Assembly: GCA_008501735.1 (NCBI GenBank)
Contig: QQUF01000009.1
Span: 1 to 64,000, forward strand
DNA from: Calditrichota bacterium
GTDB taxonomy: Bacteria; CLD3
Direction of reading: 5' to 3'
DNA: 64,000 bases
Positions 13,709 through 25,427 of the stretch are shown here, in pieces. Both the position numbers and the translations under genes were made by a program. How positions within the stretch are numbered: position 1 is the first letter of the stretch; each line of letters starts with the position of its first letter. Below the pieces are notes generated by a model that worked only from the letters and a program-made list of their open reading frames with translations, did not search any database and had not been told where the DNA came from.

Positions 13709-16700
13709 ATGAGTGATTTATTTAAGAAATCCATTTCGGGTTTCGTTACTCTTTTCATTGCAATTCTTACCCAATTGTCATTTGCACAAGACATTACAGT
13801 TGCAATTCCTGACACATCTTTTCAAAATGGAAGTGTTTCTAAAGTAGAATTACCAATTTCTACTACAAGCATTACTTTTGCTCAGAATGTTCTAAATTAT
13901 ACTTTAACAATCGACTACAATCCGTCAATTGTAGTTTTTGATACTGTTTCTACAATAGGAACAATTTCAACAAGTGCTTCAAATATTTCTGTTACTCCAC
14001 CAATTCCAACAGGAGTAAATTCTGAACAAGTTACAGTGAGTGCCACTTTCTCTTCTGCTTTGGTTGGTTCAGGAATTTTGTTGAATACAAGTTTTGATTT
14101 GGTTGCAAACACAGGAAATACTTTGCTTGACTTGGAGTCAACTTTCAATTCAGGTTTAGTGAACTCAATTTCTATTGACGGAAATTTGGAAATTTTTAAC
14201 GAACCAATTTTATCACTTCCAATTTTAGATTTCTCATTAATTGAAGATGCTTCAGATTCACTTCTTTTTGACCTTGATAATCATTTCTCAGATTTGGATA
14301 ACGATGTTTTGAGTTTCCAAGTTCAAAATTCTAATTTAAATTTGATTCAGCATTCGATTAATGGAAACAATGAATTTACGGTTTCACTTTCTTCCGACTC
14401 TTCGGGTATTGCAATATTTATCATTACAGCAACAGACACAGACGGAATTGTTTCCGATACTTTTGCAGTGAGTGTCTCACCTGAAAATGATGCTCCTTTT
14501 GTGACAAATACAATTTCCAACCAAAATTTCCAAGAAGACAGTGGAACTCATCTGATTGTAAATAATTTGGACAATATTTTTTCAGACATTGATTCTCCAA
14601 GTTTAATTTTCTCGACTTCCGTAAATGGTAGTGGAATTACTCCAAGTGTAAACTCAAATTCACTTTTTATTAGCACAGTTCAAGATTCATTTGGAGTTTA
14701 TTTGGTGAATGTTACAGCCAACGACGGACAAGATTCCGTTAGTACAAGTTTTAGTATTACAATTAACTCTGTAAATGACAAGCCTTTTGTTACGAATCCT
14801 TACGGAAGCACGACGATTTTGGAAGAAGACAGCGTTACATTGGGAAATCTCTCGAATAATTTTGGTGATGTTGAAGACCAAACCTTGAGCTATTCGTTTC
14901 TTAATAAAAACTCTGCTTCGATTCAAGTGAGTTTAATAGGTCAACAACCAAAAATTAAGCCGATACCGAACTACTTTAATACGATTCCTGACACAGTGAT
15001 TTTTATTGCACAAGATTCGGGTGGTTTAACAGAAAATGACACTCTTCTTGTGAATATTACAAATGTCAATGATTTACCTATTAAAATTGGGTTTATGCAA
15101 GATGCAATTGTTAATGAAGATTCACCACCTTTTGCTTTAGAAAATTTGAATACGATTTTCACAGACATTGATGATGTTTTAAATTTTTCTGTTTTTGTTG
15201 ACACAAGTGGAATTAGTGTTAATTTTTCCAATGGTTTTCCAATAGTTACGCTGACTGAACATTATTTTAATGAAGAGCCTGACACATTAATTTTTACAGC
15301 AACGGATTCATTTGGAGAAACAGTAAATGATACAATCTCTTTGACAGTTTTGCCTCTTAATGATCCTCCTTTAGTAGGAAACCAATTTTCATTAATAACT
15401 GTTTTTGAAGATGAATATACAAACTCTCAACTTACTTTTAATTTAGATGATTTTTTTCAGAGCCCTGATGGTGATACTCTTGAGTTCTCATTTTTTGAAA
15501 ACTCAGGTAACTTTTCTGTAAATTTACAAGGAGTTTTACAAAATATTGTAACAATTTCCTTGGTCTCTGATTCATTTAATACAGTAGATGTATTAAATCC
15601 AAATTCTGAAAATATAATATTCGCTGCAACAGATAAAGACCTTCAAACAGTAACTGATACTTTAGAATTGATTATTTTAGCAGTTAATGACCCTCCAAGA
15701 GCAAGTTATCAGAATATTCAAGTAATTGGAAATACTCAATCGGTCATAAATACTTCACCTTTTGTTGTTGCTCCTTTGAACGACCAAAATATTGGGTTTA
15801 GAGATATTGAAGGTAATGCAATAGATGTAACTTCTTACACTGTTTCAAGTTCGGCTCCAAATATTGCCTATGTAGAAATTGTCAATGATACAAGCCAAAC
15901 AGGGCAGATTAATTACATTCCCAAAATAACTGTTAATTCTACTCCGCCGATTCAGTACGGAAATGTTACTTTCACTTTTACCGCCGCGGAATTGGCGACA
16001 GGGCTTACAGGCTCAGATACTTTTGTTTTGACAGTTTATGACCCTGACCCAGTCGTTGTTGGTCCAGTAATTGAACTTTTGGACGCACAATTAACAGATG
16101 GAACAACAGGAGTATTTTACGCATCACAAGGAGCTTTTGGTGCAACAGTGACAGAGACGGGAAACATTGATGTTTTTCAAAATAGTGTAACAATAAATTA
16201 TTACTCACCGATTACAAACACAGTTCCACTCCAAACAGTTCTTCCTTCTTACACAGTAACAAATGGTAATGGACAAAATGAAATAATTGCAATAACTGAT
16301 ACATTCAGTGTAATTGATCCAACAATTACAGAATTTAAAGCAGAAGTTATAGCTTTTAATGTTATTGGAGACTCTTCCTCAAATTCACGGAATTATATAA
16401 TTGACCGAAATATTCCTAATTTGAATGCAACCGTTACACCAACACAAATTCCATTCTTAGTGGGTTTAAATGCTTCTGTAAATGTTTCTGCAACTTTTAA
16501 TGATTCAACAGGTTCAGGAGTTGGAGCAGGAATTGACACAACCTTTGCAAGAGTAAATCTTCTGACCCCAAGTGGTTCAAACACACTAATTATTCCGACA
16601 GTTAATGGAAGCCCAAATAGCACTTGCACTTTTAACACCTCGATTTCAGGTTTTAGCGAAGTCGGAACTTATACGATAATTTTATCGGTTAGAGACAGAG

Positions 16701-19700
16701 TTGGTAATGTAAAATCTACGACAAAAGAAGTGATTGTTAAATCAACAGAAGCATTAATCGGGACAATCGGACAGGGAAATTTCAATTATTTTAATCCTGA
16801 AGATGCCAATTCAATTGATTTTACAGTTCGTCAATTAACTAGCCTTCCAATTAGTTTAAAGCCATTGGAAATTGACCAGTTTTCAGTTTCAAATGTTTTA
16901 GTAAACACGCTAACAAAATCTCCAACTCTTAGCTCCTCAACAGTTTTAGGAGACAGCACTTTTTATAACTTTACAGCTAATTTTCCATCAGGAACATTCG
17001 ATTCAACGGCAACATTTTTAGACGTAAAAGTTACGGTTGTGAATTTACAAGATTCACTTCTGACAACTGCAAACAGAAATTTCATTCTAGATAGAAAATC
17101 ACCGATTCTGACAAGTGTAACAACGGATTTGGGAAGTCCTGTGAGTATCACAAAAGGACAGTCGATTAGTTTAATTATCAATTTCTCTGACCCAACAATT
17201 GGTGGATTCCAAGGTTCTTTGCCTGTTACAAACAATGCTTTGACTCAAGTGATTCGCCCTGACGGTTCAATAATTTCACCTAATTTTAATTTTGCTTCAA
17301 ACTCAAGCGGTCAAGCACAGTTTAATCAAACTCAACTTCCGGGAAGTTACAATTTACGAGTTGTAATGGAGGACAATGTTGGAAATGTTTTGGATTCTAC
17401 TCACGTCGCTTTGTTCACCGTTAATGGAACTGCTCCAATAGTTTTAATTCCAACAACAGCAGATTTTAATAATTTCCTAAATCCAAATCCACCGAACATT
17501 TTAAGTTTTACAGTAACAGGAATTGACACTGGAACAACTCCTATTTTGGTGAATGCAAGAGTCTTAAACGCATCAAATCTAAATGTTCTAAGCATTATGA
17601 ATGCTGTAACACTGAATTCAATTAGCGATTCAACAATCACTTTTAATTCGGGCGGAATTACTTCAAGTATTGATTCTATAAGGTTTGAAGTAACTGCGAC
17701 AAATGATTTGGGGCTTTCAAATTTAGTCTTTCAAAATTATAACGTTGATTCGCAATCTCCTTCGATACTTTCATTTTCAACTGACACAACAATTATAAAA
17801 TTGGGTGAGCAGTTGCTCTTTAGTGGAAACCTAAGCGAAACAGTTTTGGGTTCAGGAATTGACCAAACTTCAATTGAGATTGAAATTCTTGCACCTGACG
17901 GAAGTGTAAGCAGTCTTTTCCCACCAACAACAGGAAATGATTTCAATAAAAGCTTCAGTAATTTCCCGTTTAACGGAGCAACTCTTGCGGGAAATTACAC
18001 TTCTACTTTAACTGTAAATGACAACGTTGGAAACAGTAATCAAACAAATACCAACTTTTTTGTAAATGACGATTCACTTCAAATTCAATTTTTACCAGCT
18101 GATTTTGGCTTTTTCTTTAATCCAACAGGAATAGATTCTTTCAGTTTGAATGCCATAAAATTGGGTACAAGTTCAATTGCAACAATTTCTGGCTCGGTTT
18201 ACAATGCAAATGATGTTTCACAAGTTTTTGTCTCAAACACAGAATCCTTTTCTGCAAATTCAAATACAACGATTCCATTTTCGCTTTCAACAAACATTCC
18301 GTTGGGAATTTCAGATGTGATTTTTGAGGCAACAGTAACAAATTTACTCGGAAATTCCGTTACTCGAAGTCAGGCTTTTACAAGTGACCAAGAAATTCCA
18401 ACTTTGGTAACTTTTGACATTCAGCCGAACCCAATTTTCGTTTCGCAGTCTGTCCAAATTTCTGCTTCAATGCTTGACACAATTTCAGGATTAGACACGA
18501 CAAGTTTTGAATTGCAAATTATCGCTCCTGCACCAAGTGGAGCAACTTTTAATTTTACACTTTCGCCACAAGCAAACTTAGTGAGTAGCAACTCTGTGTT
18601 CACTACTTTTGCGACAAATAATGTTTCAGGGATTTACAATGTAAGTTTTAGTTTTGATGACAACGTTGGTAATACACAAACATTTTCAACAACTTATCAA
18701 GTTGACAACACTCCAGCTCCTTTGGTTAGCTTGAACGCTTCGGATTACTTGAATTTTGTAAATCCTGCTCCACCAAATCCGCTTTCGATAACGGTCTCAG
18801 AACAAGTTGGAATCTCTCTACCAAATACAGGCGGAGTTTCTTACACAGTTTTAGGTCAACCTTCTGGAACTATTTTAAATTCAATTTCTCCAAATTACAC
18901 TGCAAGTGACACAATTCACCAAATTTTAGCAGAACTAAACCTTACAAATTTACCTCAAACAGACACGGAAATTGACATTAGTGTAACAGCAACAAATGTT
19001 CTTGGATTCTCCAATACACAACTTGAAACTTACATTTTAGATTCACAAGGTCCTGTTGTAACAAATTTCTTAGCAACTCCAGACTCTGTTGAAATTGACA
19101 GTTTGACGATAATCTCTGCAAGTTTCTCAGATTCGGGTTCGGGATTAGATTCTGTTTTGGTTAGTGTAAGTAAAAACGGTAGTTCAGCAAGTTCAACTAT
19201 TTTTAGTGGAACGCAAGCCTTATTCAATACTTCTCAAATAACTTTCTCAACAAACAACCCTGGAACTTACACACTAACTTTGGATTTGAGAGATAATGTT
19301 GGTAATGAAACAAGCACAACAACAATACTTGAAGTAAGTGCAGAGCCTCACCAAATTGCATTTCTTGAAAAAGATTTTCAAAATTACTTTTTACCTACTC
19401 AATCTGATTCGTTTAGTTTTGTGATTTCAAAACCGCTAAACCAAGCAGTAAACTTGAAAAGCAAAACAAATGGCGGAGTTCAAATTAATGTTTTTGATGC
19501 CCAGACTAACAATTTGATTGAAAACATTCCAACTAATTCTTTCTCAAATTATGATCATTTAGCGAGTGTAATTCCAATCACTTTTGGTTTGTCATCTCCT
19601 TTAAATTCATCCGTTGCATTAATTAGAGTTGAGGTAACAACAACTAATGTATTAAACGATGTTGCTTTTCAAACCCAAAATTACAGACCCGATTTCTTTG

Positions 19701-22700
19701 CACCAACTTTTACAAATTTTAGTCCAGCAAATTCTTCGATAGCAATCGGTGATACAACAGACATTCTTTTAAATAATTTAACAGACCCAAATTCAAATGG
19801 AATTTTAGGTTCTGGAGTTGACAGTGTTGAAGTGATTTCTAAAAAAATAGGAACACTAAACGCAAACATACTTTTTAGTGGTAAGAATTCACAATTTGTC
19901 AATTCTACAACGTCATTCACAACACAAGTTGCGGGAACTTATGAGCTTTTCTTAAGAGTTACTGATAATGTTGGTAACGTAAACAGAGATACAACTCAGT
20001 TTGTTGTGAATGCAAATCCACCACAAATTAATTTTGCAAGTTCAGAGTTTGGAGATTACTTCAAACCTCAAACTTCAAATAATTTTAATCTTTCAGTCAG
20101 TGAAATTGACAACATTGCTTTCAATAAATTGACTATTCGAGTTTTCAATAATGCAAATGGTTTATCAATTCAAAATCCGATAGTTTTTACTCCACCTGAC
20201 ACAGCCACAGTTTACAACTTTAGTTACTCTATTTCAGGATTAAACGATTCGACAGTTAACGAAATTCGGGTTGAAGCGGAAGCAATTAATGTTCTTAATG
20301 ACACTTCCACAGTTTCAAAAATTTACTTACCTGACTTTCACGCTCCTTTGGTGAACACTTTTGCAGTTTCGCAAAGTTCCATATCAATCGGTGACACGAC
20401 AGATGTTTTAGGAAATTTTGTAGATTTCGTTTCGGGAAGTGTAGTTGGTTCAGGAGTTGACACAGTTTTTGTTCGAGTTAAAAAAGTTGGTAATCAAACA
20501 ACAAGCACAATTTTTAGTGGTACAAATGCACAGTTTGTTAATTCGACAACAATTTTTACAACTCAAATTGCAGGGAATTATCAATTGTTTTTAAGAGTTA
20601 CTGATAATGTTGGTAACGTAAACAGAGATACAACTCAGTTTGTTGTGAATGCAAATCCACCACAAATTAATTTTGCAAGTTCAGAGTTTGGAGATTACTT
20701 CAAACCTCAAACTTCAAATAATTTTAATCTTTCAGTCAGTGAAATTGACAACATTGCTTTCAATAAATTGACTATTCGAGTTTTCAATAATGCAAATGGT
20801 TTATCAATTCAAAATCCGATAGTTTTTACTCCACCTGACACAGCCACAGTTTACAACTTTAGTTACTCTATTTCAGGATTAAACGATTCGACAGTTAACG
20901 AAATTCGGGTTGAAGCGGAAGCAATTAATGTTCTTAATGACACTTCCACAGTTTCAAAAATTTACTTACCTGACTTTCACGCTCCTTTGGTGAACACTTT
21001 TGCAGTTTCGCAAAGTTCCATATCAATCGGTGACACGACAGATGTTTTAGGAAATTTTGTAGATTTCGTTTCGGGAAGTGTAGTTGGTTCAGGAGTTGAC
21101 ACAGTTTTTGTTCGAGTTAAAAAAGTTGGTAATCAAACAACAAGCACAATTTTTAGTGGTACAAATGCACAGTTTGTTAATTCGACAACAATTTTTACAA
21201 CTCAAATTGCAGGAAATTATCAATTATTTTTAAGAGTTACTGATAATGTTGGTAATGTAAACAGAGATACAACTCAGTTTGTTGTGAATGCAGAACCTCA
21301 CACTGTGGAATTCTCAGAATCTGAATTTGGGAATTTCTTTAATCCGAGTCCTCCGAATATTTTTTCATTTTCTGTAATTCAACCTCAAAACGTGCTTCTC
21401 AAACCACAAACTCAACAAGGAATTCAAATTAGAGTTTTGGAAACTGCAAACGGCAATATTTTGGAAGATACCTTTGTTCCAAATTACTCTGTAAGCGATA
21501 CAATTGACATTGCTTACTCGTTTGGGACAGTTTTAGACACAAGTGTAACCGAAATTACTTTGGAAGTTTTAGCAATTAATGTTTTGAATGATAGCACTTT
21601 AACAAGCACAAATTTTGTTCCTGATTACTTCGTACCTGAAATTTCTTTGCTTTCAATTTCTGCTGATACAGTTGGAATAAACGAGAACCTTACTTTAAGT
21701 GCAAATTTTGATGATTCAATTTCAGGTATTTCTTTAAGTGAATTTGTGATTGTTAGACCTTCACCTTTGGGAAGTTTGAATTTCACGAGTAACAACCAAA
21801 ATAATTTCCAAGTTATTTTTGACTCAACAACTGTTGCAGGAAATTACACAGTTAATTTTAGTGTAACGGATAATGTAGGAAACTTGGTAAGCCAACAGGC
21901 TCAATTTTTTGTGAAATCATCACCGCCAGAAATTACTTTCGGAGGAGCAGAGTTTAATAATTTTTTCAATCCGAACCCACCAAACTTATTGAATTTTACT
22001 GTTATTCAAAAAGATGAAATACCTGTTCAAGCTACAAATGGAATTTCCATTTCAATTTTTGGAAAACCCTCTGGTAATTTAATTTTTGGACCATTTCAAC
22101 CAAGTTATGTTGTTAATGACACGATTCAAATTTCAACAAATGTAACCTTGAATATTCCACAAAATGATGAAGCTATTGATGTTAAAGTAATTGCGACAAA
22201 TGAAATTGGAATAAGTGAAATGACTACGGAGACTTTTTTAATAGACGGGGTTAAACCTTCGGTAACTTTACTTTCTCCTCAAGTTGGTGAAGAATTTGCA
22301 AAAAACTCAAATTTTAATTTTATTGCAAATTACACAGATGAAATTCCAATAGGTTTGAGACTTAGCAAAAATGAAATTTTAAAAATGGTTAAAAAGTCAA
22401 ACTCCAAAATTTCTGAACTACTTGGAGCAGGAGTTGATTTGAGTTCGGTTTCTTTAGTTATTACATCTCCTGATGGTTTAAAAACTGATGTAACTTCACT
22501 TACAAATATTACAGCAACAGGAATTGATTTTATAAGCTCTCAACTGACATTGGTTGGAAATTATCTGATTGAATTAAAGGTTGCTGATAATGTTGGAAAT
22601 TTGAATACAATTGTTACACAGATAAAAGTTTTAGAAGAAAAACCAGTTTTAAACTTCCAAACATCTCAATTCGGAGACTTTTTTAATCCTGCAAGTCCAA

Positions 22701-24367
22701 ACTCTTTTACTGTTTTATTAATAGAAAATGGTTCAACTCAATTTACACCAAGCAACATAAAAATCAATGTTAGTAGAGTAGTTGAGAGTGGAATTATTCC
22801 CGGAAGCACAAACATTCCGTTTGATTTTAACAGAAATGGTAATGAAGTTGAAGTTAGTTTTTTACCAAGCCTTACATTTGCAACTTCTGACATCGGAATG
22901 AAAGTTGACTTTATTTTAAATCACCCACTTTTTACACCCGACACTTTGAGTAAAATTTATTCGATAGACAATATTTCTCCTGAAGTTTCAGCTAATTCTC
23001 CTGAACCAAATGAAGAATTTATTCAAGATTCCCAAGTAAATATTTTCTTTAGTTTTGATGATTCTCAAACTTCTGTCTTTTCCACTAAACCAAACGGGAA
23101 AAGCAGATTTGCTAAAACTAAAAGAGAGCAAACAACTTCACGCAAAAGCCAAAACAAAATCTTAGGAAACGGTTCAGGAATTGATACTTCAAGTGTAGTT
23201 TTTAGGCTTGAATTTCCTGACGGACATCAAGAGGTTAGAAACGGACTTGTAACACCAAATTCGTTTTCTCTGACAACAGAGCCACTAAACACACCGGGAA
23301 ATTATGCAGCAATTTTGGTTCTTGCAGACAATGTTGGAAACACTAAACTCTTAAATCAAAAATTTAAAATTAACAAACGAGTTCTTCCAACAACTGTTCC
23401 GCAAATTAAATTTGATGCACCATTTACCTTTGGAAGTAATCCACACAATTTCAATTTCTTGACTTATGACGATGAAGGAATTTCAACAGTTACTCTAAAG
23501 ATTTCAAGACTAAGAGCTACTTTTGAAAATCCCGAAGGAGTTTTGGAAGTTATAGAAGAATCAGCAGAATTTGACCAAACAACACAAAACGACACTGTTT
23601 TTGTAAATTACTTAGCTCAATTTTCACTGAGTAACACAAGCTCAGCAAAAGATTTGGAAGTCGTTTTGGAGGCAAGCATTACGGATTTTGAAGGAAACTT
23701 AAAAATCTTTACTCAATCCTACAAAATTGACCAAGATTCTCCTGTTATTACTCAAATTACTCCAACGAATAACACACTAATAGAATCACTAACAAATTTC
23801 TCGGTTCGTGTTGACTTTGAAGACATTGGAATTGGAATTGAAAGTTCGGAACTTGAGGTAGTTGACTCCGAAGGAATTCAAATCCAAAAGGTTCAAGGGA
23901 CAATTCAGGAAAGTGCTTCAGTTGGATTCGCTGAAATTTTTATTAGTGAAAGTTTGAAAGCTGACAATTACCAAGTAATTTTCACAGCTTCTGACAGCCT
24001 TGGAAATTCTACTCGTCAAGTAACGACATTTAGAGTGAACTCAAGCCTTTTTGTTGTTGAAGACATTCACAATTACCCGAATCCTTTCAAAATCGGCTCA
24101 ACAACAACATTTGTTTTTACAGCAACCAAAGATGCACTTGTAACGATTCATATTTATGATTTTTTGGGAAGAAAAGTTAGGACTTTGTTAGAAGAGAGAG
24201 AATTTAGACCTCAAGGAAACGAAATAGAAATTGTTCCTGTCTGGGACGGGAAAGATGACTCAGGAAGCAATTTGGCTAAAGGAGTTTATTTTGCAAATGT
24301 TCTTGTCAAAGAGAAGAACGGAGAAGGTAAAAGTAAAAAAGTTGTTAAAATTGCATTAATTAAGTAA
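13709..24367 (+). CDS. Giant multidomain surface protein (3552 aa) with cohesin-like, cadherin/Ig-like repeats and C-terminal sorting domain
   Basis: Residues 1-28 are a signal peptide. Residues about 29-165 resemble a cohesin-type beta-sandwich (VAIPDTSFQNGSVSKVELPI, YTLTIDYNPSIVVFD). About five cadherin/VCBS-like modules follow (170-700) with EDS, DIDS and VNDxPFV boundaries. From about 780 to 3400 there are long modules of roughly 210-240 residues, each holding a YFxNPxxPN strand and a DNVGN motif; I place these near residues 995 (DRVGN variant), 1221, 1437, 1650, 1860, 2085, 2298, 2511, 2720, 2958 and 3206. The last about 95 residues (NYPNPFKIGSTTTF ... GVYFANVLVKEK) are a FlgD-like/T9SS type A sorting domain. 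It is probably an adhesin or matrix protein exported through T9SS. The frame is intact throughout despite a near-exact internal duplication. The PorV-like gene starts 10 bp downstream. Confidence 0.9.
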   Translation: MSDLFKKSISGFVTLFIAILTQLSFAQDITVAIPDTSFQNGSVSKVELPISTTSITFAQNVLNYTLTIDYNPSIVVFDTVSTIGTISTSASNISVTPPIPTGVNSEQVTVSATFSSALVGSGILLNTSFDLVANTGNTLLDLESTFNSGLVNSISIDGNLEIFNEPILSLPILDFSLIEDASDSLLFDLDNHFSDLDNDVLSFQVQNSNLNLIQHSINGNNEFTVSLSSDSSGIAIFIITATDTDGIVSDTFAVSVSPENDAPFVTNTISNQNFQEDSGTHLIVNNLDNIFSDIDSPSLIFSTSVNGSGITPSVNSNSLFISTVQDSFGVYLVNVTANDGQDSVSTSFSITINSVNDKPFVTNPYGSTTILEEDSVTLGNLSNNFGDVEDQTLSYSFLNKNSASIQVSLIGQQPKIKPIPNYFNTIPDTVIFIAQDSGGLTENDTLLVNITNVNDLPIKIGFMQDAIVNEDSPPFALENLNTIFTDIDDVLNFSVFVDTSGISVNFSNGFPIVTLTEHYFNEEPDTLIFTATDSFGETVNDTISLTVLPLNDPPLVGNQFSLITVFEDEYTNSQLTFNLDDFFQSPDGDTLEFSFFENSGNFSVNLQGVLQNIVTISLVSDSFNTVDVLNPNSENIIFAATDKDLQTVTDTLELIILAVNDPPRASYQNIQVIGNTQSVINTSPFVVAPLNDQNIGFRDIEGNAIDVTSYTVSSSAPNIAYVEIVNDTSQTGQINYIPKITVNSTPPIQYGNVTFTFTAAELATGLTGSDTFVLTVYDPDPVVVGPVIELLDAQLTDGTTGVFYASQGAFGATVTETGNIDVFQNSVTINYYSPITNTVPLQTVLPSYTVTNGNGQNEIIAITDTFSVIDPTITEFKAEVIAFNVIGDSSSNSRNYIIDRNIPNLNATVTPTQIPFLVGLNASVNVSATFNDSTGSGVGAGIDTTFARVNLLTPSGSNTLIIPTVNGSPNSTCTFNTSISGFSEVGTYTIILSVRDRVGNVKSTTKEVIVKSTEALIGTIGQGNFNYFNPEDANSIDFTVRQLTSLPISLKPLEIDQFSVSNVLVNTLTKSPTLSSSTVLGDSTFYNFTANFPSGTFDSTATFLDVKVTVVNLQDSLLTTANRNFILDRKSPILTSVTTDLGSPVSITKGQSISLIINFSDPTIGGFQGSLPVTNNALTQVIRPDGSIISPNFNFASNSSGQAQFNQTQLPGSYNLRVVMEDNVGNVLDSTHVALFTVNGTAPIVLIPTTADFNNFLNPNPPNILSFTVTGIDTGTTPILVNARVLNASNLNVLSIMNAVTLNSISDSTITFNSGGITSSIDSIRFEVTATNDLGLSNLVFQNYNVDSQSPSILSFSTDTTIIKLGEQLLFSGNLSETVLGSGIDQTSIEIEILAPDGSVSSLFPPTTGNDFNKSFSNFPFNGATLAGNYTSTLTVNDNVGNSNQTNTNFFVNDDSLQIQFLPADFGFFFNPTGIDSFSLNAIKLGTSSIATISGSVYNANDVSQVFVSNTESFSANSNTTIPFSLSTNIPLGISDVIFEATVTNLLGNSVTRSQAFTSDQEIPTLVTFDIQPNPIFVSQSVQISASMLDTISGLDTTSFELQIIAPAPSGATFNFTLSPQANLVSSNSVFTTFATNNVSGIYNVSFSFDDNVGNTQTFSTTYQVDNTPAPLVSLNASDYLNFVNPAPPNPLSITVSEQVGISLPNTGGVSYTVLGQPSGTILNSISPNYTASDTIHQILAELNLTNLPQTDTEIDISVTATNVLGFSNTQLETYILDSQGPVVTNFLATPDSVEIDSLTIISASFSDSGSGLDSVLVSVSKNGSSASSTIFSGTQALFNTSQITFSTNNPGTYTLTLDLRDNVGNETSTTTILEVSAEPHQIAFLEKDFQNYFLPTQSDSFSFVISKPLNQAVNLKSKTNGGVQINVFDAQTNNLIENIPTNSFSNYDHLASVIPITFGLSSPLNSSVALIRVEVTTTNVLNDVAFQTQNYRPDFFAPTFTNFSPANSSIAIGDTTDILLNNLTDPNSNGILGSGVDSVEVISKKIGTLNANILFSGKNSQFVNSTTSFTTQVAGTYELFLRVTDNVGNVNRDTTQFVVNANPPQINFASSEFGDYFKPQTSNNFNLSVSEIDNIAFNKLTIRVFNNANGLSIQNPIVFTPPDTATVYNFSYSISGLNDSTVNEIRVEAEAINVLNDTSTVSKIYLPDFHAPLVNTFAVSQSSISIGDTTDVLGNFVDFVSGSVVGSGVDTVFVRVKKVGNQTTSTIFSGTNAQFVNSTTIFTTQIAGNYQLFLRVTDNVGNVNRDTTQFVVNANPPQINFASSEFGDYFKPQTSNNFNLSVSEIDNIAFNKLTIRVFNNANGLSIQNPIVFTPPDTATVYNFSYSISGLNDSTVNEIRVEAEAINVLNDTSTVSKIYLPDFHAPLVNTFAVSQSSISIGDTTDVLGNFVDFVSGSVVGSGVDTVFVRVKKVGNQTTSTIFSGTNAQFVNSTTIFTTQIAGNYQLFLRVTDNVGNVNRDTTQFVVNAEPHTVEFSESEFGNFFNPSPPNIFSFSVIQPQNVLLKPQTQQGIQIRVLETANGNILEDTFVPNYSVSDTIDIAYSFGTVLDTSVTEITLEVLAINVLNDSTLTSTNFVPDYFVPEISLLSISADTVGINENLTLSANFDDSISGISLSEFVIVRPSPLGSLNFTSNNQNNFQVIFDSTTVAGNYTVNFSVTDNVGNLVSQQAQFFVKSSPPEITFGGAEFNNFFNPNPPNLLNFTVIQKDEIPVQATNGISISIFGKPSGNLIFGPFQPSYVVNDTIQISTNVTLNIPQNDEAIDVKVIATNEIGISEMTTETFLIDGVKPSVTLLSPQVGEEFAKNSNFNFIANYTDEIPIGLRLSKNEILKMVKKSNSKISELLGAGVDLSSVSLVITSPDGLKTDVTSLTNITATGIDFISSQLTLVGNYLIELKVADNVGNLNTIVTQIKVLEEKPVLNFQTSQFGDFFNPASPNSFTVLLIENGSTQFTPSNIKINVSRVVESGIIPGSTNIPFDFNRNGNEVEVSFLPSLTFATSDIGMKVDFILNHPLFTPDTLSKIYSIDNISPEVSANSPEPNEEFIQDSQVNIFFSFDDSQTSVFSTKPNGKSRFAKTKREQTTSRKSQNKILGNGSGIDTSSVVFRLEFPDGHQEVRNGLVTPNSFSLTTEPLNTPGNYAAILVLADNVGNTKLLNQKFKINKRVLPTTVPQIKFDAPFTFGSNPHNFNFLTYDDEGISTVTLKISRLRATFENPEGVLEVIEESAEFDQTTQNDTVFVNYLAQFSLSNTSSAKDLEVVLEASITDFEGNLKIFTQSYKIDQDSPVITQITPTNNTLIESLTNFSVRVDFEDIGIGIESSELEVVDSEGIQIQKVQGTIQESASVGFAEIFISESLKADNYQVIFTASDSLGNSTRQVTTFRVNSSLFVVEDIHNYPNPFKIGSTTTFVFTATKDALVTIHIYDFLGRKVRTLLEEREFRPQGNEIEIVPVWDGKDDSGSNLAKGVYFANVLVKEKNGEGKSKKVVKIALIK
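19952..21213 (+). repeat. Tandem duplication, 639-bp period, inside the giant gene
   Basis: Bases 19952-20574 recur at 20591-21213 with an offset of 639 bp (213 codons); I saw no difference across these 623 bases. The first differences are G/A at 20575/21214, then isolated silent changes up to the AATGCA of the next module. One complete module is therefore duplicated in frame. A more diverged relative precedes it (about 19700-19951). Confidence 0.95.
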
Positions 24368-24377
24368 GGGAAGAAAA

Positions 24378-25427
24378 ATGAAAAAAATAATACTAATCCT
24401 TACAGTTTTGGTTATTTCCAGTGTGGAAATGGCTTTTTGTGGAAATAATCACGCTTTACCATTTATGCGAATGAATGTTGGTGCAAAAGCAGAAGGTTTG
24501 GGTGGAGCATTCACTGCTTTGGCTGATGATGGAAGTGCAATTTATTGGAATCCTGCAAGAACAATTTTCAACCGTGAAAAGCATTTACAAGGAAATTACT
24601 CGCATCTTTCTTTAGACAGAAGTTTCAATGTTTTAGCGTATTCTCATAAATTTGAAATTAAGGATTTTGCACTCGGAGCGATGTTTATTAATTCAGGAAC
24701 TTCTGGTATTGAAGGTTACAGTTTAGACAATCAGAAGCAAGGAACTTTTACTGCAAGCGATAATGTTTTGCTTGTCTCGGGGAGTTATGCCGTAAATCAA
24801 TTTTTCTCATTTGGTGGAAATATAAAATTTTTGATGAATAAAGTTGAAAATCAAACTGACAGTGGTTTTGGAGTTGATTTGGCTACTTTTTATCGTCCAA
24901 TTGAAGAGGTGAAAATTGGTTTAGTTGCACACGACATCTACACAAAAGTCGGTAAAGAGTCGGGAATTGGGAGGCTTCCTTGGAATGTCAAAATGGGAAT
25001 AGCAGTTCAAGAAATTTTTGAGGAATTAACTTTTGCTTCTGACTTAACTAAAGTAGAAGGCAATTCTAAAATAGGTTATGCCTTTGGAGTGGAATGGAAA
25101 TTTTGGGATAAAACAAGCGACCTTGAAATTGCTTTTCGAAGTGGAGTAAACACAATTTCTTTTGATAATTTAGGTTTTAGTGCAGGAGTTGGTTTTAAGA
25201 AAAATAGTTTCGGTTTCGATTATGCGTTTGTAAGTAATCAAGAAAGTGTTTTTGGACAATCACACATAATTTCTACTTCTTATGCAATTGGCGAAACTTA
25301 CGAATACGTTTCAAGGCGAATGAAATACGAAGAAAGAATGAACAAAACTCTCGAAGAAATCAGACAACAAAGAATGATTGAAGAGAAAAAACTTGAAGAA
25401 CTAAAAAAGGAGCTAAAGAAAAAATAA
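24378..25427 (+). CDS. PorV/PorQ-family outer-membrane protein with C-terminal coiled coil
   Basis: A 349-residue outer-membrane barrel. A signal peptide (residues 1-21) is followed by the family N-terminus LPFMRMNVGAKAEGLGGAFTALADDGSAIYWNPA, typical of PorV/PorQ (UPF0164) proteins; these belong to the FadL-like barrel group and several shuttle T9SS cargo or assist its surface attachment. FGGNIKFL and VGLVAHDI are barrel strands. Residues about 310-349 form a charged heptad-like helix (EERMNKTLEEIRQQR, EEKKLEELKKELKKK) that is an unusual extension for the family. Its position 10 bp after the giant T9SS-type gene strongly suggests joint expression and a role in exporting or attaching that protein. 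Confidence 0.85.
   Translation: MKKIILILTVLVISSVEMAFCGNNHALPFMRMNVGAKAEGLGGAFTALADDGSAIYWNPARTIFNREKHLQGNYSHLSLDRSFNVLAYSHKFEIKDFALGAMFINSGTSGIEGYSLDNQKQGTFTASDNVLLVSGSYAVNQFFSFGGNIKFLMNKVENQTDSGFGVDLATFYRPIEEVKIGLVAHDIYTKVGKESGIGRLPWNVKMGIAVQEIFEELTFASDLTKVEGNSKIGYAFGVEWKFWDKTSDLEIAFRSGVNTISFDNLGFSAGVGFKKNSFGFDYAFVSNQESVFGQSHIISTSYAIGETYEYVSRRMKYEERMNKTLEEIRQQRMIEEKKLEELKKELKKK

Follow-up and report, generated by a model that had tools for sequence, protein, structure and literature searches.

A giant putative T9SS adhesin and an adjacent PorV-family barrel: a candidate cargo-anchor pair in a Calditrichota genome

The stretch of Calditrichota DNA analyzed here (contig QQUF01000009.1, positions 1 to 64,000; the window) carries two open reading frames on the same strand separated by 10 bp (Table 1). 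The first encodes a repeat protein with a C-terminal sorting domain (CTD), the longest CTD-bearing product among the listed frames of the genome, and the second encodes a PorV/PorQ-family outer-membrane barrel. Both frames are as described in an earlier examination made without database searches (the sequence-only reading). Since a 10-bp gap has no room for a promoter, the two genes are most likely co-transcribed. Comparisons were made within the class, here nine genomes in two families, in which G001 is the only other sequenced member of the same family and belongs to another genus.

Table 1. Features of the gene pair (window coordinates)
Feature	Position	Strand	Evidence
Giant T9SS cargo, 3552 aa	13709..24367	+	ORF; 2852-aa orthologue in G001
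N-terminal signal peptide, residues 1-26	13709..13786	+	Read by eye from sequence
Cohesin-like N-terminal domain (weak)	13784..14218	+	No Pfam match here; orthologue PF00963 23.7 bits, cut-off 24.1
Cadherin-like / tandem-95 domains	14219..15760	+	PF17803, PF17963 over cut-off; NF012211
Tandem Ig-like modules, ~213 aa per unit, D-x-VGN motif in each	15761..23947	+	
Last two Ig-like domains	23948..24364	+	PorU profile positions 959-1094, 65.7 bits; fold match 6za2, E 4.2e-10
CTD, PorU-type	24041..24364	+	NF033707 48.7 vs TIGR04183 31.6 bits; held-out HMM
PorV/PorQ-family outer-membrane barrel with tail, 349 aa	24378..25427	+	ORF, profile, AlphaFold2 model, fold search
14-strand barrel, residues 68-304	24579..25289	+	AlphaFold2 model
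C-terminal charged helix, residues 313-348, predicted periplasmic	25314..25421	+	AlphaFold2 model; conserved in G001

The modules attributed to the giant protein by the sequence-only reading were largely recovered. Cadherin-like/tandem-95 domains are present, as are eleven D-x-VGN motifs. The cohesin-like start is weak, since it has no Pfam match in the giant itself and only the N-terminus of the orthologue comes close to the PF00963 cut-off. Residues 2080-2315 (236 residues) recur exactly 213 aa later (window 19946-21292), which points either to a duplication of very recent date or to an assembly problem; the repeat unit exceeds the length limit of Tandem Repeats Finder, from which there was no output. 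Domain scans found no propeller or peptidase domain in the giant, but cadherin-like and Ig modules instead. From these domains we infer that the protein is an adhesin.

The claimed sorting domain passed the T9SS type A model TIGR04183 (31.6 vs 23 bits), a match that whole-protein scans miss and that appears when the CTD is scanned alone. It also passed Pfam PF18962 (27.7 vs 27 bits). It scored higher on NF033707 than on TIGR04183 (Table 1), and the type B model TIGR04131 was absent from its profile matches. By sequence and fold this CTD is nearer to PorU and PorZ than to cargo CTDs, which is what is meant here by a PorU-type CTD. Against the PorU profile the window giant and the G001 giant scored 65.7 and 68.6 bits, compared with about 50 bits for the best ordinary CTD of the nine genomes, and the two ranked directly after the peptidase-bearing PorU-like proteins; the giant CTD is the closest non-peptidase match to the PorU C-terminus in these genomes. 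The best match to its modelled fold was PorU (6za2), and a search of PDB with a CTD profile ranked PorU and PorZ first. The CTD of PorU stays bound to PorV and that of PorZ to PorQ, both CTDs being kept (PMC5562754). By analogy, the CTD of the giant would be retained uncleaved.

Assignment of the second product to the PorV/PorQ family held, with NF033709 at 109.3 bits against a cut-off of 90. The scores lay under the equivalog cut-offs for canonical PorV (NF033710, 41.5 vs 250 bits) and PorQ (NF033711, 96.1 vs 220 bits), the PorP/SprF model TIGR03519 was absent from the profile matches, and in the tree the barrel falls outside the canonical PorV clade. The AlphaFold2 model, built on a 52-sequence alignment, has 14 strands and a single helix (mean pLDDT 90.1, about 96-98 over most of the length). 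A Foldseek search with this model placed 8gl6_F, PorV in the solved T9SS translocon, at the top (E 8.5e-14), followed by 6h3i_F.

The C-terminal tail had been described as a charged coiled coil. It is charged, but is better regarded as one partly amphipathic helix of 36 residues; its sequence is conserved between the barrel and the orthologue (LEEIRQQRMIEEKKLEELKKELKKK and LQEIRRQRILEEQKLEELMKDLNKK, respectively). An even-stranded outer-membrane barrel with a periplasmic N-terminus has its C-terminus in the periplasm as well. With 14 strands the tail is therefore predicted to point inward, below the outer membrane, and could not present the adhesin outside, as the sequence-only reading had suggested. 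Barrels of relatives carry OmpA (L085) or TPR (L127, L123, L086, L069) domains at the same end. The tail might connect the complex with the cell wall or with some periplasmic partner, which is a guess, or it may have no specific role.

Among these relatives, L085:5076-6527 (G046:C70) joins a PorV-like barrel to a peptidoglycan-binding domain of the OmpA type. L127, L123, L125 and L129 (family f2) are PorV-like barrels of 624-693 aa, one of them cut by a contig end. All four terminate in KK, and the two that were scanned have C-terminal TPR repeats. That the C-terminal KK would be joined to peptidoglycan in the manner of Lpp is speculation only.

The pair is conserved in the sister genus. In G001 the 2852-aa orthologue of the giant is followed after 12 bp by a 345-aa tailed barrel, and the flanking genes differ. 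Identity between the two loci is 58% for the barrel and 60% for the CTD, and 37-39% for the remainder of the giant. The G001 locus is identical to that of MAG JADZEA01, isolate SJ803, and is the one orthologous locus of the pair; a pattern-based scan of limited reach among 84,980 species found no further tailed orthologue. The proposal of a PorV-family barrel linked to a particular cargo was right, and neither of the two outcomes named as speaking against it was observed: the genome has other PorV-family genes, and the adjacency is retained in the sister genus.

The sequence-only reading also took PorV to be normally a single general shuttle and regarded the pair as a possible different solution for one large adhesin. 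In this lineage, however, there is more than one PorV, and the pair is one of several. About 12 full PorV-family genes were counted in the genome, so the window barrel is not its sole PorV, and the canonical PorU-linked PorV (C48:150727) is a separate gene. Seven of the barrel genes lie directly behind a gene for a CTD protein, with gaps of 10-29 bp, against about 5.5% expected (binomial 1e-6); the other five have no adjoining CTD protein. The seven pairs are the standard PorU-PorV (PorU 696 bits), a C25-peptidase PorU2-like protein with a PorV2-like barrel (C8), three operons with a TonB-receptor-like gene first (Pfam-checked in one, judged by size and N-terminus in the two others), an LTD-domain protein with its barrel, and the giant with the tailed barrel. 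The same or other pairs were found throughout the class and in further phyla: after removal of redundancy 32 barrels were paired, 23 unpaired and 6 undetermined, and an additional scan showed pairing for 34 of 53. From Cloacimonadota one cargo was examined; it is a C25 peptidase and belongs with the PorU-PorV-like cases of known kind. With so many pairs in genome and class, a dedicated barrel is the common arrangement here.

Several further observations were made during these searches. L028, L029, L030 and their G001 counterparts are paralogous operons encoding a TonB-receptor-like protein with a carboxypeptidase-regulatory domain, then a CTD protein (890-1238 aa, with a 'PNPY' CTD), then a barrel. 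The best PorQ candidate, G000:C24:241885-242850, scored 155 bits (cut-off 220) and has no adjoining CTD protein. Four Elusimicrobia MAGs (L232, L238, L233 and L236; G060-G063) contain PorV-family barrels, some behind CTD proteins of 2219 and 1703 aa, together with a divergent SprA-like frame of 1633-1835 aa (57-73 bits in a single stretch, below cut-off), that is, a T9SS-like system beyond the phyla usually listed.

The presence of PorU and of a C25-peptidase PorU2-like protein among the paired cargoes raises the question of whether the giant and its barrel are part of the attachment machinery, equivalent to PorZ-PorQ, and not an adhesin with an anchor. The giant CTD does match PorZ as well as PorU. 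However, the giant is made up of cadherin-like and Ig modules, with neither a propeller nor a peptidase, and the C24:241885 gene is a better PorQ candidate than the window barrel; we consider this explanation very improbable.

The type of CTD was found to follow the pairing. Held-out HMM profiles, from which sequences of the own genome and the sister genus were left out, gave differences (paired minus cargo model) of -8 to +40 bits for 15 paired CTDs and -41 to -91 bits for cargo CTDs; the CTDs compared are those reached by the searches, each of which took 150 out of about 250 initial candidates for scoring, with about 65 of those read as sequence. Each of the 28 paired CTDs has a match to the C-terminus of PorU, and 21 of them match PorZ too. 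Judged by sequence, the CTDs that adjoin barrels are a distinct PorU-like type, unlike the approximately 180 ordinary cargo CTDs of the genome. There are three exceptions, CTDs of the paired type with no barrel gene beside them. That at C24:130033 has an orthologue in G001 which adjoins the orthologue of a lone barrel (C16:12768), and that at C32:305460 is an 86-aa fragment. The third, C57:50042-52708 (L226, G000:C57:44328-52708), is a paralogue of the C11 paired cargo with a TonB receptor next and no barrel. In F. johnsoniae three type-B cargoes are orphans sharing a barrel (PMC12618676), and the C57 protein is perhaps a similar orphan. CTDs and barrels have diverged together: over 18 groups their distances correlate with r 0.52 (0 of 5000 shuffles). 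Part of this correlation could arise from co-inheritance alone, with no need for binding.

These data bear on two other explanations. Since the giant CTD scores above cut-off on the general type-A model, the giant could be a client of the general PorV, and the barrel might have another job, for example as a FadL-like pore, being a neighbour by chance or through co-regulation. The fold search did show PorV-family barrels to resemble FadL/TodX channels, and five of about 12 are not beside a CTD protein. Yet such pairs turn up in unrelated loci and phyla and are tied to one CTD type, and the window pair persists in G001 where the surroundings change; this explanation is accordingly quite unlikely. 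Alternatively, the barrel could be only a shuttle that hands the giant over from SprA to PorU. PorU would then cut off the CTD and either couple the giant to lipopolysaccharide or let it go. PorV does this for type-A cargo (PMC5562754), PorU and PorV are both encoded in the genome, and TIGR04183 does recognize the giant CTD. Against this, the CTD is of the type found in PorU and PorZ, whose CTDs escape cleavage, and about 180 proteins with cargo-type CTDs cope without private barrels. We regard a purely shuttling role as rather unlikely.

Of the other T9SS components, the genome encodes SprA, which scored 759 bits over its pieces, and PorU and PorV, which are adjacent. Neither PorP/SprF (TIGR03519) nor type-B CTDs (TIGR04131) were found over cut-off in the genome, nor PorP/SprF in the class, with control genomes giving no match either; absence of both from the genome is therefore likely, short of proven. 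The GldM profile matched neither the genome nor the control genomes and so carries no weight here.

Taken together, these data make it probable that the giant and the barrel form a cargo/anchor pair, in which the CTD is uncleaved and the barrel serves as the membrane anchor. The giant would reach the periplasm by means of its signal peptide, and SprA/Sov would be its translocon across the outer membrane. The PorU-type CTD would then pass to the dedicated barrel rather than to the general PorV, the sortase would leave this CTD on, and the CTD would stay bound, so that the barrel itself would anchor the adhesin as PorV holds PorU and PorQ holds PorZ. The C-terminal helix may link the complex to another envelope component in the periplasm. 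A review has proposed that cognate PorV-like barrels protect CTDs (PMC10202324).

The occurrence of several cargo-barrel pairs in one genome suggests a general anchoring rule. A broader and more tentative possibility, on balance doubtful, is that diversification of the PorV family gave rise to private anchors in lineages that lack type-B CTDs and SprF, each anchor taking one PorU-type CTD protein from SprA and holding it uncleaved. Anchoring of this sort would form a third class next to LPS conjugation and the route by way of SprF, and the helix of the window barrel would link the giant to the cell wall or a periplasmic partner. The combination of a PorU-type CTD with a PorV-family barrel gene beside it would provide a sequence rule for dividing hundreds of predicted T9SS cargoes into those cleaved and released and those held by a barrel. 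Why the CTDs of PorU and PorZ are retained would become testable on natural replicates, as many little-known phyla offer several independent pairs in each genome. Current papers assign every type-A CTD to one PorV, and private barrels would limit that assignment. Expansions of PorV-family private barrels were not found described in the literature searched, which was largely without subscription journals; one such type of pair is already known to NCBI curators, as their PorU2/PorV2 models show.

The giant and its barrel are known parts in a new arrangement, a variant of CTD-shuttle pairing and one of several such pairs. They share CTD type and barrel family with PorU-PorV and PorZ-PorQ of Porphyromonas gingivalis, and PorU-PorV are adjacent in this genome too. 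However, the cargo is a giant repeat protein and not a sortase or LPS-delivery protein, and the barrel, which lies outside the canonical PorV clade, bears a helix predicted to be periplasmic. As in SprB-SprF (type B) of Flavobacterium johnsoniae, a large adhesin-like protein is directly followed by a FadL-type barrel of its own, and some cargoes are orphans, but here the CTD is not type B and the barrel is of the PorV/PorQ family, not PorP/SprF. The PorU2-PorV2 pair of NCBIfam (NF052324/NF052325) is likewise a paralogous pair of a CTD protein and a PorV-family barrel, similar to the one at C8, whereas the giant has no C25 peptidase and the window barrel scores 58.7 of the 325 bits required. 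Finally, OmpA- and TPR-tailed PorV-family barrels also have a C-terminal extension on the periplasmic side, but that of the window barrel is a bare 36-residue helix with no known domain.
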